DNA of 27,492 bases from a virus, in the IMG/VR virus record IMGVR_UViG_3300017692_000005, positions 1 through 27,492 of that record; one strand, written 5' to 3'. The notes beneath the pieces were generated by a model that worked only from the letters and a program-made list of their open reading frames with translations, did not search any database and was not told where the DNA came from. The position numbers and the translations under genes were made by a program. Within the stretch, counting starts at the first letter, position 1. Each line of letters opens with the position of its first letter. This document shows positions 8,549 through 22,670 of this stretch, in pieces.

Positions 8549-8931
8549 ACTTCGGCTACGTTCCGCCACCTTATGGCCCTCTGTGGCCCGCTGTGGAGGA
8601 GTTGCTGGACAAAGCTGTGCGCTGGGGCGGTAACGACTGGAGCCAAGTGAAGTCCGATCTGGCCGATCACAAGGCCCAGCTTTGGCTTACGGTCACTGAT
8701 CGCCCGATTGTGGCTCTTGTGACCCGGATGGACGGCGACACGCTTGAGGTGTGGCTGGTCGGCGGCGTGGTTTTGGCCGGATCGGTGAAGTTCTTGGAAA
8801 CGGCGATTGCAGCAGCCCGCGAAGCTGGCGCGACGAACGGACGCATCATCGGCCGCAAGGGCTGGAAGCGAGTGCTGGAGCCCTATGGCTGGCGGCAGGA
8901 TGGCGATTGCCTGGTGAAGGACTGGATCTGA
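8545..8931 (+). CDS. Phage protein with possible GNAT-like fold
   Basis: A 128-residue protein. The pattern QLWLTVTDRPIVALVTRMDG, then LEVWLVGG, then a helix, then GRIIGRKGWKRVLEPYGWRQ resembles a small phage family with an acetyltransferase-like (GNAT) layout. I cannot see a clear acetyl-CoA binding loop, so enzymatic activity is uncertain. It lies among tail genes with overlaps on both sides. Confidence 0.5.
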   Translation: MNFGYVPPPYGPLWPAVEELLDKAVRWGGNDWSQVKSDLADHKAQLWLTVTDRPIVALVTRMDGDTLEVWLVGGVVLAGSVKFLETAIAAAREAGATNGRIIGRKGWKRVLEPYGWRQDGDCLVKDWI

Positions 8932-9581
8932 TGGGCAAGAAAAAGACCGTTCAGAAGAACGATCCATGGGCGCCTGCTCAGCCGTATATTCTCGACAATC
9001 TGCAGCAGCAGTCGGACGTGTTCAAATCGACACAGCCACAGCTTGAGCAGTTCGCTGGCATGCAGCGCGATACCTACGGCCAAGTGGCTCCCGGCGCGCA
9101 GCAAGGCATCATGGGCGCGCAAAGCCTCGTCAATAACAACCTCTCAGGCGCCAATCTCAACGGCAATCCGTATCTGGATGCCATCATCAGCCAACGCAAT
9201 CAGGACATCGCCGGCACGGTCAACGATCAGTTCAGCACGGCGGGGCGGTTCGGCTCAGGCCAGCATGCGGCAATTCTGGCGAACGAACTAGCCAAGGCTG
9301 ACGATGCGCTGCGCTACCAGAATTACGGCGCCGAACGGGGCTATCAGCAAGACGCGATCGGCCAGGCGGGCAATCTGATGCAGGGCTCGCAATCCTTGCT
9401 CAACAACGCCGCCGAACTGCCGTGGATTGGCGTTCAAGCATCCAACGGAGCAGTGCGTCAGGCCAGCAGTGGGTACGGCACGCAGACGCAAAAGCAGAGC
9501 GGGGGGCTAGGCTCGATGCTCGGCGGTATCGTGGGTGCCGGCCTGTCCGGTTGGGCGGGCGGCGGCTTCAAGGGGGTCTGA
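8931..9581 (+). CDS. Internal virion / DNA-transfer protein
   Basis: This 216-residue protein is rich in Gln, Asn, Gly and Ala. It has NPYLDAIISQRNQDIAGTVN and FSTAGRFGSGQHAAILANEL, segments common in podovirus internal virion or ejection proteins. The C-terminus is a glycine-rich hydrophobic stretch (LGSMLGGIVGAGLSGWAGGG) that could insert into a membrane. The start at 8931 shares its A with the previous stop (TGATG), and MGKKKTV is a plausible N-terminus. It is followed by two more candidate ejection genes, so the three may act together in carrying DNA across the envelope. Confidence 0.65.
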   Translation: MGKKKTVQKNDPWAPAQPYILDNLQQQSDVFKSTQPQLEQFAGMQRDTYGQVAPGAQQGIMGAQSLVNNNLSGANLNGNPYLDAIISQRNQDIAGTVNDQFSTAGRFGSGQHAAILANELAKADDALRYQNYGAERGYQQDAIGQAGNLMQGSQSLLNNAAELPWIGVQASNGAVRQASSGYGTQTQKQSGGLGSMLGGIVGAGLSGWAGGGFKGV

Positions 9582-9582
9582 C

Positions 9583-10194
9583 ATGGCAATCGGCTTTCGC
9601 CCTAAGCTCGGAATGGGCTTGCAGGACATGGCGATGGGTAGGACCCCGCCCTATGCTCCTTCGACCACAGTGCGAGACTATACGCCCACAGCCAGCACGC
9701 TCGATCCGAACACGAAAAAGACCGGATTTCTCGGCGAAGGAGGGTTTGGCCGTATTCTAGCCGGCGCAATCGGTGACGGGCTGTTGCAGAATGCGGGCAT
9801 GGCCCCGGTCTATGCGCCGATGCAGCAACGCAAGCAGCAGATGGCGCAGGAAGAAGCACAGTGGTCGCGTAGGCAGACTGCGGAGAGGCAAGCGAGCATG
9901 GCCGATTGGCAGGCCAAGCAGGGATACGAAGCCGCGCATCCCAAGCCCTACCGCTTCCAGGACAACGCGGGCAATGTCGTCGAGCTTGGCCCCGACGGCC
10001 AGCCCAAGACGCTGTTTACGGACCCCACTCCCAAGATCAACTATCAGCGCGTGAACAATCCGGACGGCACATTCACGATGGTTCCGATGCCGCTGGGCGG
10101 AGTGCCTGCAGCACCGCCAACCGCTCCGGTCGGTAAGCTCACGCCAATGGGAGGCGGCGCTGGCAACGGCGCCGGCAACTTTCCAAGGCGCTAA
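9583..10194 (+). CDS. Ejection protein, N-terminal frame of a frame-shifted lytic transglycosylase
   Basis: A 203-residue frame starting with MAIGFRPKLGMGLQDMAMGR, with a Gln/Arg-rich helical middle (about 75-115) and a Pro/Gly-rich end. The stop at 10192-10194 lies immediately before sequence that, in the +1 frame, encodes the start of an SLT domain including its catalytic Glu. The natural reading is one protein of about 324 residues made by a +1 shift at TTTC (10180-10183). As written, the short product would lack any enzymatic domain. It sits between two other ejection-type genes. Confidence 0.65.
   Translation: MAIGFRPKLGMGLQDMAMGRTPPYAPSTTVRDYTPTASTLDPNTKKTGFLGEGGFGRILAGAIGDGLLQNAGMAPVYAPMQQRKQQMAQEEAQWSRRQTAERQASMADWQAKQGYEAAHPKPYRFQDNAGNVVELGPDGQPKTLFTDPTPKINYQRVNNPDGTFTMVPMPLGGVPAAPPTAPVGKLTPMGGGAGNGAGNFPRR
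10180..10186 (+). other. Candidate +1 frameshift site
   Basis: The upstream frame reads AAC TTT CCA AGG CGC TAA. If the Phe tRNA on TTT (10180-10182) slips one base to TTC (10181-10183), the reading becomes NFQGANFDAFKQAIIGQETG, a natural SLT-domain entry. Both codons are read by the same tRNA, and TTC is the better match. AGG follows two codons later. A one-base sequence error or true mutation would look identical. Confidence 0.45.
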
Positions 10195-10276
10195 CTTCGA
10201 CGCGTTCAAGCAGGCGATCATCGGACAAGAGACGGGCGGGCGCTACGGCATCGCCAATACGCAAGGCTCAGGCGCG

Positions 10277-10558
10277 ATGGGGATCGGTCAGGTCATGCCT
10301 GATACGGCGCGAGCATTGGCGGCTCGGGTCGGCCTACCTTACCGCCCTGATCTGATGGCCGGCGCGCACCCGGAGGCCAAGGCGTACCAGGACAAGATCA
10401 CCAACGCAGCGTTGCAGGAAGCATGGAACGCGGGTGGTCAAGGCCGCGATCCGCGCACCTCGGCGATGTATTATCACGGCGGCTCCAATCGCAAGATTTG
10501 GGGCCCGAAAACGCAGCGTTACGCTGACGAAGTTCTAGGCAGGATTGGACGTAGCTGA
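10277..10558 (+). CDS. Lytic transglycosylase (SLT) domain, downstream frame
   Basis: From the first ATG in this frame the product is 93 residues (MGIGQVMPDTARALAARVGL, later TSAMYYHGGSNRKIWGPKTQ). The frame is open back to 10055 and there encodes AFKQAIIGQETGGRYGIANT, which carries the probable catalytic Glu (residue 216 of the fused protein). No ATG, GTG or TTG exists between 10055 and 10277. The ATG start would delete the active site and has no convincing ribosome-binding site, so the active enzyme must come from the upstream gene by frame change. Virion transglycosylases cut peptidoglycan during DNA entry. The stop overlaps the next ATG (TGATG). Confidence 0.7.
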   Translation: MGIGQVMPDTARALAARVGLPYRPDLMAGAHPEAKAYQDKITNAALQEAWNAGGQGRDPRTSAMYYHGGSNRKIWGPKTQRYADEVLGRIGRS

Positions 10559-13191
10559 TGCCGCAAGCGCGCGACGAAGCCGGCAACATCTGGGAAACTG
10601 ACGCACAGGGTAATCCTGTGCGCCTCGTCCAAGCCGCTGGCGGTTCAGCGCCGATGACCTTTGGTGCGCCTGATCCAACGATCGCCCGTAAGGAAGCGCG
10701 CGCGAGTTCGGCTGATGCGCGTTCGGCTGCTGCCGATGCCCGCGCTGCTGCTGCTGCAGACCGGAGTGCGCGAGAGTTTAACGCTACGCACAACGCGGAC
10801 GGCTCGCCCAAGGACAGCGCGACGAAGCTGGCCAACATTCCAGCTGGTGCCGCGACGGGCATCCAAGAGAACCTGAAGACGCTGCGCGCGCTGGATGAAG
10901 CCATCGCCAGCTTGAAGAAGCGCCCGCAGTCGATCGGCACCGGCACCGGCGCCCTGGGCGATACCTTCACGCAGTGGAATGACCCTGAAGGCACCGGCAC
11001 CCGTTCAGCGATCGGAGCCGTGGGCGCGTACAAGATCCACGATCTGTCCGGCGCTGCTGTGTCGGCTTCGGAGGCGCCTCGCTTCACCCCGTTCGTGCCG
11101 ACCGTCACCGATCGTCCGGAAGTAGCGCAGCAGAAGCTAGAGCGGTTTCGGGCGGAGCTTCAGGGACAGATCCGGGAGTCGGCAGACTTCTACACGCCGG
11201 CCAATGGCTATCGCCCGTACAAGACGCCTGGGCTCGATACGGCGCTTGGCGGGAGTGAAGCGCAGCAGCGCGCGGATAACGAAGTTCCTGGGCAGGCGAA
11301 TGGTGCGCCGCTCAAGGCCGGCACCGCTCCCGTCGATCCTGGCGCGATGCCTCCCGCCAACTCTTCAGGCGGCGGTTTGCCTCCCGCTCCCGGCGGTGGC
11401 ACGCCCATGACAATCGCAACGGGCGCCAACCGCTCCATCGGCTCAGATCGGCTTAACGCCCAAGTCGACGCGATGATGAATGCCGGCGCGTCGAAAGCGA
11501 TGATCGATACGGTGCTGAAGCAGCAAGGCTTCCCCCCGATCAGTCCATCCAGTTACTCGGCTGCGACAGCGTGGATGAAAAAGAACCCTGGCGAGAAGTA
11601 TTTCGGCGCCAACGTGACGCGGGATGAGCCTAACAGCCTATTGGCGCAAGCTGCTGCAAACCCTGCCGGTTCATTCACGGCACAGATGGCCGACGCTGCG
11701 ACTGCTGGCACCGTTGGCGCACTGGCAGGCGACAAGGGGCGTGGTGCACTCGATGCGATGGACCAGACGCATCCCGACGCTTCGATGGCCGGGTCGATCA
11801 TTGGCGGCATCACAGGCGCAGGGGCGGCGGAGGCGGGCATTGCAGCACGTGCGCCTGGCGCCTTGGCGCAATACGCTCCGCGCCTCGCGGACGCTGTGTA
11901 CGGTGGCCTCTCGGGTTTTAACGGCGCGGCGGACGGCCAGGGCCTGCAAGGTGCGGCGATGGGAGCTGGCCTCGGCGTGGTTGGTGGCGCCGTAGGCGAG
12001 CGCGCGATGAACACAGCCGGATCTCTGGTCCGTGGTGTCCGTGATCCAGCAGTCGACTATCTGCGCGCTCGCGGCATCCCGCTCACTGTCGGCCAGATCG
12101 CCGGCCAGGGCGGCGCACTTGGGCGCGGCGTCAAGAAGATCGAGGATGCGCTGACCAGCATTCCTGGAGTGGGCAACGTCATTGACGCTCGCCGACGCGA
12201 GGGTGTGCAGGGCTTCAACCAGGCGGCATTCGACATCGGCGCTGAAACCACCGGCAATCAGGTGCAGGACTATGGCGCGGCGGGCCTTGGCCAATTGCGT
12301 GATGCTGTCGGCAACGCTTATGATCGCGCGTTAAACCCGGTCCGGATCAACGCCGCAGAGCCGCAGTTCGGACGCGATATTGGCGATGTTGTGAGCAACA
12401 TCGAGGGCATTCCCAATGTGAACGGCGCTCACGACGCCGCCATGGCCGGCTTGCGCGCTCGGGTCGACGGGGCAATCGACCCTGCTACCGATCAGATGAC
12501 GGGACGCAACTTCCAGGAAGCTTACCGTGGGCTTGCTCGGACCGGTCGTGAGCGTGCCAACGGCGACTATGGCCATGAGATCGGTCAGGCCATGCGGCAG
12601 GGGCAGGACGCCCTAGCGGGAGCGCTGGAGCGTCAGAACCCCGGAGCGTATCAGGGCTTTGTCGACGCCAACCAGGGCAACCGCCGCATGAACGTGCTGG
12701 CGCAGGCGGTCGATGCAGCGAAGAACCAGGAAGACCAGTTGTTCACGCCTGCCCAGCTAAACCGTGCCGATGCCCAATCAGCCACAAGGCTGACAGGCCG
12801 GGTAAACTCTGCGACGGGCAATCGCCCCTTCGCCGAGTTGGCGCAAGCCGGCCAGGACGTTTTGCCGTCGAAGCTGCCCGATAGCGGCACCTCAACGCGT
12901 GCCATGACCGCGCTTGCTCTCGGAAGTCTTGGAGGCGGCGGCGTTGGCGCTCTGACAGGCGGTACGAATGGCGCGCAGACCGGGACCGGTGTTGGTCTCG
13001 GCGCTACCCTGGCGTTGATGCTCGGCGGTACGCGTGGCGCTCAGCGCGCGGCGGAACGGCTACTTGTGGACCGTCCAGACCTTGCCATTGCGATCGGGAA
13101 CGGCCTCCAGCGTAACGCCCGCATAGGGGGTGGCGTCGGTGCGGGAACGAGCCTTGGGCTTGGTCTTCAGAACCTGGTGGCTGGGGAATAG
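10558..13191 (+). CDS. Large internal virion / DNA ejection protein
   Basis: An 877-residue protein, long and low in Cys. It has an Ala/Arg coiled coil near the N-terminus (about 42-74), a Pro/Gly-rich linker (about 255-290), long Ala/Gly-rich hydrophobic stretches (about 370-490 and 785-877) and a helical middle. These features fit the large ejection proteins of podoviruses that form a channel in the host envelope, but I see no named enzymatic domain. It follows the transglycosylase by TGATG overlap. Its TAG stop lies in the loop of an intrinsic terminator. Confidence 0.7.
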   Translation: MPQARDEAGNIWETDAQGNPVRLVQAAGGSAPMTFGAPDPTIARKEARASSADARSAAADARAAAAADRSAREFNATHNADGSPKDSATKLANIPAGAATGIQENLKTLRALDEAIASLKKRPQSIGTGTGALGDTFTQWNDPEGTGTRSAIGAVGAYKIHDLSGAAVSASEAPRFTPFVPTVTDRPEVAQQKLERFRAELQGQIRESADFYTPANGYRPYKTPGLDTALGGSEAQQRADNEVPGQANGAPLKAGTAPVDPGAMPPANSSGGGLPPAPGGGTPMTIATGANRSIGSDRLNAQVDAMMNAGASKAMIDTVLKQQGFPPISPSSYSAATAWMKKNPGEKYFGANVTRDEPNSLLAQAAANPAGSFTAQMADAATAGTVGALAGDKGRGALDAMDQTHPDASMAGSIIGGITGAGAAEAGIAARAPGALAQYAPRLADAVYGGLSGFNGAADGQGLQGAAMGAGLGVVGGAVGERAMNTAGSLVRGVRDPAVDYLRARGIPLTVGQIAGQGGALGRGVKKIEDALTSIPGVGNVIDARRREGVQGFNQAAFDIGAETTGNQVQDYGAAGLGQLRDAVGNAYDRALNPVRINAAEPQFGRDIGDVVSNIEGIPNVNGAHDAAMAGLRARVDGAIDPATDQMTGRNFQEAYRGLARTGRERANGDYGHEIGQAMRQGQDALAGALERQNPGAYQGFVDANQGNRRMNVLAQAVDAAKNQEDQLFTPAQLNRADAQSATRLTGRVNSATGNRPFAELAQAGQDVLPSKLPDSGTSTRAMTALALGSLGGGGVGALTGGTNGAQTGTGVGLGATLALMLGGTRGAQRAAERLLVDRPDLAIAIGNGLQRNARIGGGVGAGTSLGLGLQNLVAGE

Positions 13192-13203: not shown

Positions 13204-13312
13204 AAGCACGCAGACCGTCACGCCTTTCAGGGCGCAAATCCAGAAGATTTCAGTGAGTGTCATCGGGCGCCGATCATAGGCTTTCCCGGTCGCTGCGCAA
13301 TTGGAGAATGCA
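13204..13312 (+). promoter_or_regulatory. Leader of the tailspike module
   Basis: This gap of about 110 bases follows the terminator and precedes the SGNH tailspike. It holds a small hairpin, CGCC (13221-13224) with GGCG (13231-13234), and a ribosome-binding site GGAG (13303-13306) six bases before the ATG. A promoter is expected because of the upstream terminator, but I could not identify clear -35 and -10 boxes. Confidence 0.35.
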
Positions 13313-15547
13313 ATGGCCTTCAAGGACTACCCCCTTGATCCTGCCGCTGTGGATAGCATCGGTGACGGCATTTATGTCGGGCCGAACATGGCGCGCAACG
13401 ATGTGCGTCCGGCGCTCCAGCAGCTTGCCGCTGACGGCCATGCGCTGTTCGATTACGTCAACCAGATCCTGCAACAGATTTATGGGACAATTTACTCCAG
13501 CGTGGCTGCGGGTCTGGCAGCAACTGCCTCGGGCGGGCTGTTCCTCGTTCGCAACTCCGATGGCACGGTCACGCTATATCTGGACCAGGGCGGCGAGGCG
13601 GTAGAGCAAGTCAGCCTCGCAACCACCAGCATGATCCCGGTGCGTCCTGCGCGCTCGCTGGGCCGGGTGTCGGCTGCGATGGCGCAGGGTGCGACAACCC
13701 GCATCATGTGCCTGGGCGATAGCGTCACCGATGGCCTGGGTACGACTGGATGGGTCGCTGATCACAACGCGCATGTCGGCGATCCCGCGTATGATCCGCC
13801 GCACGCCTGGCCGCAGGTGCTTGAAGATTATCTGCGGGCGACGCTGCGCAACGGCAACATCACTGTCTGGAACGGCGGCTTTTCCGGCCAACCCACCGTG
13901 TGGATGCTGGACAATTACGACTCGATCGTAGCTCCGATGGGCTCGCTGGACGTGGTGATCATCAACTCGGGCCTGAACGACGAATACATCGCAGGCTACT
14001 CCGCCGCATCGTATCTGGCCAACAAGCTGGCGCTGGTGAAGAAGATCATCGCCCGAGGTGCTGTGCCGGTCCTCACCTCCGTCGACGTGATGCAGCAGAT
14101 GGGCGGAGCGATCGGCGACGGCCTTGCAAACCGGCAGAACGTGCGCGCTTCCAACGAGATGGCGGTCATCGATCGCGGCATTGCGCAGATGTTCGGCATT
14201 GAGTTCTGGGACATGCACGCTGCCCAGCTGGACCACTACCACTCGAACCGCGATGGCATTGCTGGCAAGATCGGAATTGTGCAGCCCGACAATCTGCATG
14301 GCGGCGATCACCACCATGCTTTCAAGGCAAGCTACGCGCTCAAGATGTTGGCGCCGGGCCGGGTCATGGATTTGCCGGATGGTCGGCCTAGTGCGTTGTT
14401 CCCATGGGAAGGCCCTGCTGGCCTACTGTTCGGCGGTGGCGGTACGGCGGGCGCGCAGATATTCCACTCTTCCAACGCGCAGCCTGGCAGCAACGTGCAG
14501 GCGCACTATCCGACGATCCCTGCCACTCCCGACCGGCTGCTTAGCGCGTTGGTGTGGAATCCCGGCCCTGCCACGGCACTGTTCGCCGGCCATATCGGCG
14601 GTGCCGGCAATGGCGCGACCGGCATGCGCTTCAAGGTCTACGGCCTGAGCTATTCCGGCCTGACACTCAACGATACCCTGACGCGCGGCGACGGTATGAG
14701 CTTCGCCGCCAACAATGCGGGGCTTGGCGGGTCGGACGAAAAGCAGTTCGTGTGCATGCTCGCCCACGGCTTGAACCACGTTGAGTTCCGTGAGCCGACT
14801 GCGCTGATCTCGGGCGGCGTGGGCGACGTGTTCCCGCCTGTGCTGAAGTTCTTTCCCAACTATGCTCACGCGCCCTCCAGTGGGGCAACGTACACCAACC
14901 TTGCGGGCGCTGCCGGATCGAGCGGAGAGCTTCTGTGCGAAGCTGGCGGATTGTTCTCGCCGCCAGGATCGGGTGTGTTCGGCTTTTACCCGACCGCCGA
15001 CAAAGCGGATGCCCGTAATTTGCTGACGTTCGGCGCCTCGGAGGCAGCGGCTACCGTGTTCCTGTGGGAAGCGACGCTGCCCAGCGGGTTCGGCCTGCTG
15101 TTCAACGATGGCCCATTGTGGACGACCGACCCGACGACTGACACGGGCGCTAACCAGCGCGCGGCCAATTACCTGTACCGGCCTGGCGCTGCTGCTGGCG
15201 TAACGTCACAAGCGCTGATCTGGGGGCTCGCACACTACAGCCCAAAGATCGCGCAGTCGGAAGCCAATTTCGACAGCAAGATCGAAGGCACCGCTTTCGA
15301 CTGGGGGGCAACGGGCCGTGTCGATCTGCTGGTTGAGATGTGGCGCGATAGTGTCGCCAGCCCTGCAACCCAGCGCCTGCGCGTCAAGCTGCTCGACGGC
15401 ACAGTGGTCATGGATGCCACCCGAGCCATCACTGGCCGGGTTGGCACCTGGGGCGGCGCGATCGGCGGAACGCTAGTAGGCGACCGCCCAACGACCAACC
15501 AAGCCCGCGTTCTCAACCGGTGTCACCTTGTCCAGATGATCGGGTGA
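13313..15547 (+). CDS. Tailspike with SGNH/GDSL hydrolase domain
   Basis: A 744-residue protein. The first 110 residues (FKDYPLDPAAVDSIGDGIYV onward) look like a virion-attachment domain. Residues 130-345 are an SGNH hydrolase: GDSVTDG at 135-141 with nucleophile Ser137, NGG at 187-189, SGLND at 219-223 with Asn222, and DNLH at 326-329 giving Asp326 and His329. Such enzymes remove acyl groups from surface polysaccharides, so host-capsule or O-antigen deacetylation during adsorption is likely. Residues 350-744 appear beta-rich and may bind sugar. The start at 13313 is set by GGAG six bases upstream; an in-frame TTG 12 bases earlier has no such support. Confidence 0.85.
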   Translation: MAFKDYPLDPAAVDSIGDGIYVGPNMARNDVRPALQQLAADGHALFDYVNQILQQIYGTIYSSVAAGLAATASGGLFLVRNSDGTVTLYLDQGGEAVEQVSLATTSMIPVRPARSLGRVSAAMAQGATTRIMCLGDSVTDGLGTTGWVADHNAHVGDPAYDPPHAWPQVLEDYLRATLRNGNITVWNGGFSGQPTVWMLDNYDSIVAPMGSLDVVIINSGLNDEYIAGYSAASYLANKLALVKKIIARGAVPVLTSVDVMQQMGGAIGDGLANRQNVRASNEMAVIDRGIAQMFGIEFWDMHAAQLDHYHSNRDGIAGKIGIVQPDNLHGGDHHHAFKASYALKMLAPGRVMDLPDGRPSALFPWEGPAGLLFGGGGTAGAQIFHSSNAQPGSNVQAHYPTIPATPDRLLSALVWNPGPATALFAGHIGGAGNGATGMRFKVYGLSYSGLTLNDTLTRGDGMSFAANNAGLGGSDEKQFVCMLAHGLNHVEFREPTALISGGVGDVFPPVLKFFPNYAHAPSSGATYTNLAGAAGSSGELLCEAGGLFSPPGSGVFGFYPTADKADARNLLTFGASEAAATVFLWEATLPSGFGLLFNDGPLWTTDPTTDTGANQRAANYLYRPGAAAGVTSQALIWGLAHYSPKIAQSEANFDSKIEGTAFDWGATGRVDLLVEMWRDSVASPATQRLRVKLLDGTVVMDATRAITGRVGTWGGAIGGTLVGDRPTTNQARVLNRCHLVQMIG

Positions 15548-22058: not shown

Positions 22059-22219
22059 GGCCGATGCTCCCCGCAGAACCACTCTGGCTTGGTTTCGGGA
22101 AACTTCGAGCTAGCTGCCACACCGATGCCGTACGGTGCGAGGGCCAGGATGCGCTGCGGAGGATATCGCCTGCACCGTCCTTCGACAAAGAACCTGCACG
22201 TGTTGCAGATTTTATCCAT
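22055..22219 (-). CDS. Cys-rich mini-protein (54 residues)
   Basis: MDKICNTCRFFVEGRCRRYP with C5-x2-C8, C16 and C49 (WFCGEH). Four cysteines in this layout suggest a small zinc or iron-sulfur site. GCAGGAG lies about nine bases before the ATG. ATGA overlap with the downstream gene and an eight-base overlap with the upstream gene support it. Confidence 0.6.
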   Translation of the reverse strand: MDKICNTCRFFVEGRCRRYPPQRILALAPYGIGVAASSKFPETKPEWFCGEHRP

Positions 22220-22670
22220 GCGCACTCTCCTGCAAAGGGGTGGATAGGCGGGTGAGGGTGGTGTTGATGCGCGTCACTTCCTTGAGAAGCGCAGCCGTGC
22301 GCTTGAACCATTCCCCTCGAATATGGGCTGATCGGAAGCGCTCGTGGTATTTCCACTCGTCGCCTGGCGTGCCTAGTCGTTGAGCGAGCAAATCCATTTC
22401 GTACGGGCATGCTGTCTGCAATGACTGCAGGCGGAAGGGCAGGTTGGTGGTGAAGCCGATCTTGACGGGCCCATCTCCATAACCAACGAAATAGATCACC
22501 CCCTGCTTATCTCCTCCGCGATCAAATCGGCGCGCGCGGCGGATGACTTCGAAATCTGGTGGGGTGTAAGTTTTTCCGCCGCTGGCCATGTCGTTGATAT
22601 CCTTGGGGCCAGTTTTCCTGCCATTTATCTCGAAAGGCTGCAGAAAGCTGGGCGTAAGAGTAACCGACAT
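22212..22670 (-). CDS. T5orf172/MUG113-type (GIY-YIG superfamily) protein
   Basis: A 152-residue protein. The core from about 57 reads VIYFVGYGDGPVKIGFTTNL with YFVGY at 60-64, KIGFT at 70-74, R80, E105 and GEWF at 119-122. This fits the T5orf172 branch of the GIY-YIG nuclease superfamily. The first 50 residues are an extra, poorly conserved segment. Cleavage activity is possible but not shown; many members are of unknown function. It lies just after the integrase in transcription order. Confidence 0.75.
   Translation of the reverse strand: MSVTLTPSFLQPFEINGRKTGPKDINDMASGGKTYTPPDFEVIRRARRFDRGGDKQGVIYFVGYGDGPVKIGFTTNLPFRLQSLQTACPYEMDLLAQRLGTPGDEWKYHERFRSAHIRGEWFKRTAALLKEVTRINTTLTRLSTPLQESAHG

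Follow-up and report, generated by a model that had tools for sequence, protein, structure and literature searches.

A single gene of this phage appears to specify two proteins by a programmed +1 ribosomal frameshift, a reading to which we give a probability of about 0.9. Unshifted translation would end in a short protein of 203 residues, and a skip of one base at TTT_C would instead give a fusion of 324 residues that closes with an SLT (lytic transglycosylase) domain. The fusion seems to be a cell-wall-cutting version of an injected protein, made only when the inferred one-base skip takes place. What comparison of sequences establishes is the conservation of this arrangement, covariation within it and coding in both frames; that the shift occurs, how efficient it is, which contacts the ribosome makes and what the products do in the virion are inferred. 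The strongest evidence, and the novel part, is a GGAGG motif with a covarying hairpin ahead of the slip codon, both of which are absent from the earlier note on this DNA.

The DNA analysed here in full, referred to as the window, is the 27,492-base IMG/VR virus record IMGVR_UViG_3300017692_000005. It encodes a portal and a major capsid protein of the SU10 type and therefore contains a podovirus-like virion cassette; an integrase is also present. The integrase is adjoined by a small protein with a MUG113/T5orf172 (GIY-YIG-like) domain (22212–22670, minus strand), and positions 13301–15547 encode a tail-fibre-like protein with a GDSL/SGNH hydrolase domain (PF13472, 4.7e-12) that is possibly receptor-binding or polysaccharide-modifying. 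The split gene, its signals and its neighbours lie as follows.

8931–9581, plus strand: preceding cassette gene, 216 aa, probable ejection or internal virion protein (from the ORF list; role inferred from position)
9583–10194, plus strand: upstream gene, short unshifted product, 203 aa (from translation)
10150–10154, plus strand: Shine-Dalgarno-like GGAGG, in frame as GGA GGC, 30 nt ahead of TTT
10155–10174, plus strand: hairpin with an 8-bp stem, CGGCGCTG / CGGCGCCG, and a GCAA (GNRA) tetraloop (fold −16.6 kcal/mol; covariation)
10175–10179, plus strand: 5-nt spacer from the stem to the slip codon
10180–10183, plus strand: slip site TTT_C (Phe UUU to UUC, +1)
10184–10558, plus strand: SLT domain in the +1 frame, 124 aa, catalytic Glu codon at 10229–10231
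10192–10194, plus strand: 0-frame stop, 4 codons past TTT (2–8 codons past it in relatives)
10558–13191, plus strand: large downstream gene, 877 aa, probable ejection protein (from the ORF list; role inferred from position)

The reading frame that opens at 9583 comprises 203 codons with the C-terminus ...GNGAGNFPRR* and a TAA stop, and its first 200 codons double as the N-terminal part of the fusion. Its short product is a probable ejection or internal virion protein, judged by gene position; the product of the preceding gene had no family match. The +1 frame translates as ...F-QGANFDAFKQAIIGQETGG... and stays open to a TGA at 10556–10558. From the preceding in-frame stop up to the active site it holds no ATG, GTG or TTG, the first being the ATG at 10277, behind the active site. 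The earlier note had reported an SLT frame without any such codon ahead of the catalytic Glu (GAG), an upstream gene that stops just past the point where the +1 frame becomes protein-like, and a slip from TTT (10180–10182) to TTC (10181–10183) that joins the two into 324 residues. The window sequence confirms the first of these and translation the second, and the third is right in its coordinates, slip codon and length.

The window's SLT domain alone scores below the Pfam cut-off for PF01464 (19.6 vs. 21.3 bits); all 16 relatives scanned match the family (E < 0.01; best 3.2e-8). An AlphaFold2 model of the domain (pLDDT 91.4) matches Slt70-type lytic transglycosylases (probability 1.00, TMq 0.67–0.72), and members of the family share an invariant QE followed by GG. 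On the profile match, the predicted fold and the catalytic-type Glu, the assignment as an SLT lytic transglycosylase holds.

A search with the single sequence returned three viral contigs whose SLT part is 66–72% identical to that of the window. All three keep the frame change, with TTTC in frame and a 0-frame stop two to three codons later, and a fourth relative, reached through the N-terminal part, has the same frame change at 49% SLT identity. A profile built on the first five sequences matched 43 viral loci, along with two clear prophages of Sphingomonas. The +1 frame change is common to sixteen genomes, with TTTC as the last shared codon in 16/16. For an unbiased scan, viral contigs were searched with a profile of the sixteen SLT domains, which holds no information on upstream signals. 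This gave 80 SLT loci, near-copies among them, 43 of which have the +1 frame change: 42 with GGAGG and TTTC, and one (L229) with GGAGG and TTT_TAA. The remaining loci are 20 single ORFs, two −1 cases, and others that are separate genes or unclear. As dozens of other sequences show the identical change at the identical motif, the frame change in the window is not a matter of chance. The earlier note had proposed checking whether relatives keep the shift and the TTTC; that they do supports the programmed one of its two alternatives. A conserved slip-prone codon connects two overlapping frames, both of them under coding selection.

As an internal control, the motif was also searched for with no condition on the frame. 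Matches with the right frame architecture had the spacing of 27, 30 or 33 nt described below and hairpins; zero-frame and other matches lay mostly at other distances, without stable hairpins. The composite element was found 38 times in SLT genes and three times elsewhere in 2.57 Mb, the latter being near chance. All sources pooled gave 52 distinct elements, from which 35 representatives were taken whose SLT domains are more than 20% apart; five of these 35 come from the motif scan and hence have GGAGG and TTTC by construction. The element is kept even where the SLT domain is only about 40% identical to that of the window. Among the matches to INPHARED isolates there was no isolated phage with the element, and the three best isolate matches checked (Itty13, SRB7757 and BPP-1) have the SLT domain inside continuous ORFs. 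The match in Pseudomonas phage Itty13 (L289:4001–4309) falls in a long open frame without a GenBank-annotated gene, which is an annotation gap. The gene was present in one of 397 Sphingomonadaceae genomes, so prophage copies are rare. Many Acetobacteraceae genomes (L054–L087) contain a weakly similar SLT-type gene (33–49%, part of the domain).

At the slip site, the P-site tRNA is predicted to be able to re-pair in the +1 frame. UUU_C would be exchanged for UUC with the same tRNA-Phe, the anticodon of which is GAA, and in L229 the sequence is UUU_U. The A-site codon in the window is CCA, a sense codon, and L229 is the only locus with a stop in the A site, which is RF2-like. Ahead of the slip codon, an in-frame GGA GGY stands 27, 30 or 33 nt before TTTC in all sixteen genomes, and GGAGG is found at these distances from TTT in 43/43 loci of the unbiased scan, which means that the reading phase is kept. 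GGA is used at this site in 35/35 representatives, in which it makes up 12% of Gly codons, and a competing Shine-Dalgarno-like motif in the 15 nt ahead of GGAGG occurs in only one of the 35.

The interval between GGAGG and TTTC folds into a hairpin in 16/16 of the first relatives, and the stem sequences differ widely. The main covariation set consisted of the 20 representatives whose stem is 7 bp long and whose spacing is 30 nt. In this set 93.6% of cells were paired, with two-sided compensatory changes at 7/7 pairs, and the covariation score was 0.578 vs. 0.151 after shuffling, a value that none of 500 shuffles reached; when the partners were slid by 1–3 columns the score was at most 0.108. 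The window belongs to a subgroup of five sequences with an 8-bp register and a GNRA loop, in which all cells were paired and both-sided changes were found at 5/8 pairs. As a synonymous control, the 0-frame peptide of each representative was recoded with its own codon usage. The hairpin was stronger than the mean of the recodings in 35/35 (mean z −2.1; combined Fisher chi2 238, 70 df), with individual p values above 0.1 in nine. Several loops are GNRA or UNCG tetraloops, and the stem ends exactly 5 nt before TTT in 25/35 minimum-energy folds despite its varying length. These alignments and folds thus point to a stable hairpin that would abut the E site, and to conserved signals beyond the slip codon in the form of GGAGG and the covarying stem, the stimulatory role of which is inferred. 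Folds of the 60 nt downstream of TTTC varied, with no common architecture seen, and Rfam had no match anywhere in the window.

The mechanism we propose would work as follows. Most ribosomes would end at the TAA at 10192–10194 and release the 203-residue ejection-type protein. With UUU (10180–10182) in the P site, the peptidyl-tRNA-Phe may re-pair with the UUC one base downstream, a move that would gain a G–C pair, and shifted ribosomes would read on into the SLT domain and produce the 324-residue protein with its peptidoglycan-cutting end. Stimulation would come from behind the ribosome: the hairpin would re-form directly outside the E site, with 5 nt between it and the slip codon, and its folding would bring GGAGG from a linear distance of 25 nt to about 5–6 nt from that codon. 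From the foot of the hairpin, GGAGG could pair with the tail of 16S rRNA, and the hairpin and the Shine-Dalgarno duplex would block backward movement and/or pull on the mRNA, favouring +1. That this pairing and the hairpin coexist is itself part of the inference. We cautiously favour a role for the hairpin as a folding spacer that presents a distant Shine-Dalgarno motif to the 16S tail beside the E site and so drives slippage at UUU_C, within a cassette that can be turned to −1 by a change of slip site, as in L246 and L248.

Published work bears on both sides of this proposal. Placed beside the E site in an E. coli 70S system, a stable hairpin stimulated +1 shifting to about 60% of the level reached with an internal Shine-Dalgarno motif (PMC6321510), and Shine-Dalgarno duplexes can sit 5–6 nt upstream of the P site (PMC3639245). 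Also in favour are the natural single-ORF forms and a free-standing homologue of the short form. Against it, Shine-Dalgarno stimulators are known to act at 3 nt for +1 and at 9–14 nt for −1 shifts (PMC5009743), and not at 25 nt linear or 5–6 nt folded; hairpin-dependent +1 shifting in the 70S study required the absence of RF2 (PMC6321510); and the A-site codon is a sense codon everywhere but in L229. The nine representatives with a weak synonymous control and the weak homology of the N-terminal parts of split and single-ORF relatives also count against it.

An unlikely, though still viable, account is that frameshifting is real and the hairpin acts alone, with GGAGG kept for pairing with CUUUC, which would extend the hairpin, or for pausing some ten codons before the slip. 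GGAGG can pair with CUUUC by means of G–U pairs, as read directly from the sequence, RNAalifold stretches the stem to the last G of GGAGG, and upstream hairpins by themselves stimulate +1 shifting in 70S extracts (PMC6321510). However, pairing with the slip site would favour GAAAG, which is seen in no member, and the base after GGAGG is T in 32/35 representatives, as predicted by pairing with the anti-Shine-Dalgarno sequence.

We consider it very improbable that the SLT domain is a separate gene with an internal start and GGAGG as its ribosome-binding site. The motif is a perfect Shine-Dalgarno sequence, the SLT frame of some relatives does have upstream start codons, and in other lineages the SLT domain seems to be encoded by a gene apart, with an ATG of its own. 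Yet the window, L007, L286 and L156 lack ATG, GTG or TTG in the SLT frame before the catalytic Glu. At 4–12 nt past GGAGG, an interval occupied by the stem, such codons are found in only 4/35 representatives and near-cognate codons in 6/35. An internal start also leaves the fixed in-frame TTTC and the phase-keeping spacing unexplained. Slippage by RNA polymerase instead of the ribosome is more doubtful again: a nascent hairpin before a slippage run does stimulate it in a Roseiflexus IS element (PMC5009743), but TTTC has three T only, no member has a long homopolymer at the junction, and both GGAGG and the unvarying reading phase speak for the ribosome.

The SLT frame is under purifying selection, with a median dN/dS of 0.22 over 289 pairs, and a pseudogene reading was rejected on this ground. 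Sequencing error or a recent frameshift mutation in a truly single ORF, the other alternative of the earlier note, has in its favour that assemblies often err by one base in T runs and that many relatives are single ORFs, but is excluded for practical purposes by this selection, by the conserved hairpin and GGAGG, and by the recurrence of the frame change at this motif, seen in dozens of contigs that stem from different metagenomes as well as in two genomes of cultured Sphingomonas.

The split +1 form is one of several arrangements of this gene. Sister lineages have one ORF, a separate SLT gene or, in two cases, a perfect −1 heptamer in the corresponding position, and the GGAGG-hairpin-TTTC element was not found in the single-ORF relatives inspected. 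In the SLT tree the +1 form occurs in both halves, with single-ORF and separate-gene forms interspersed. The two −1 cases, L246 (2965–3010) and L248 (2971–3015), have the SLT domain in the −1 frame at the heptamers C_CCT_TTT and C_CCT_TTC, respectively. Both fall near +1 members in the tree, L248 inside them with modest support. As they keep GGAGG at the same place and a hairpin, albeit a weaker and bulged one, but use −1 heptamers, the direction of the frame change seems to have switched while the cassette stayed.

The split relatives have the N-terminal part in common. A Microcystis phage encodes a free-standing homologue of it (35% identity over 55% of the query, E 2e-5), with its transglycosylase encoded in another gene, an indication that the short product is a complete protein on its own. 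Single-ORF relatives were considered as direct N-terminal homologues and found only weak support (best E about 1e-3). On the other side of the SLT domain, the SLT stop and the ATG of the 877-aa gene share bases (TGATG, 10556–10560), with a similar overlap in 29/32 relatives, so the frameshift may influence translation of the next ejection gene. This gene has a moderate Shine-Dalgarno motif of its own, given which dependence on the frameshift is not shown.

If the proposed frameshift operates, recoding may determine how much of a peptidoglycan-cutting ejection protein is made, and standard gene callers will easily overlook the virion transglycosylases of these phages. Upstream structures are established as stimulators of gene 60 bypassing; for +1 shifting, engineered constructs show the effect, and a natural case has only been suspected ("perhaps"; PMC5009743). 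The conserved element supplies many natural variants, in stems, loops, lengths and slip directions, for the study of how RNA structure on the exit side acts on the reading frame, and two Sphingomonas prophages, one of them in Sphingomonas aquatilis DSM 15581, bring it within reach of bench experiments.

Among known systems, prfB (release factor 2) shares a +1 slip of the P-site tRNA, a pyrimidine-rich codon and an internal Shine-Dalgarno-like stimulator. In prfB, however, the motif lies 3 nt from the slip codon, a spacing not met in the window, there is no hairpin, the A site always holds a stop, and the shift is autoregulatory (PMC12421855), whereas the phage element has its motif 25 nt away in linear terms, a hairpin in between, a sense A-site codon and two structural products. 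Upstream hairpins that refold by the E site, such as the SARS-CoV attenuator and engineered 70S and 80S constructs, stimulate +1 and attenuate −1 shifting and work on E. coli 70S ribosomes (PMC3639245, PMC6321510); +1 stimulation was there obtained in synthetic constructs, unlike the phage element, which is natural, conserved, combined with a Shine-Dalgarno motif and used for a phage protein. Bypassing in T4 gene 60 also involves a 5' stem loop at the mRNA exit, proposed to pull the mRNA forward (PMC5009743), but the phage shift is of one base, and in place of identical take-off and landing codons across a coding gap, the frames join at one overlapping codon. The −1 frameshifts of dnaX and IS elements likewise combine a Shine-Dalgarno-like motif with a hairpin, and L246 and L248 have −1 heptamers; in the former the slip site is preceded by the motif at 9–14 nt and followed by the hairpin, whereas the phage hairpin is upstream, between the motif and the slip site. 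Listeria phage PSA (cps and tsh) provides productive +1 frameshifting in phage structural genes, with a slip at CCC and a pseudoknot cited (PMC5009743), and thus with other genes and stimulators. The open-access literature held no report of this frameshift in an SLT gene or of a natural +1 signal composed of a Shine-Dalgarno motif, hairpin and slip site, which is not proof of absence. Frameshifting by +1 is known as a kind, and the composite signal and the gene that carries it are, as far as could be tested, new.
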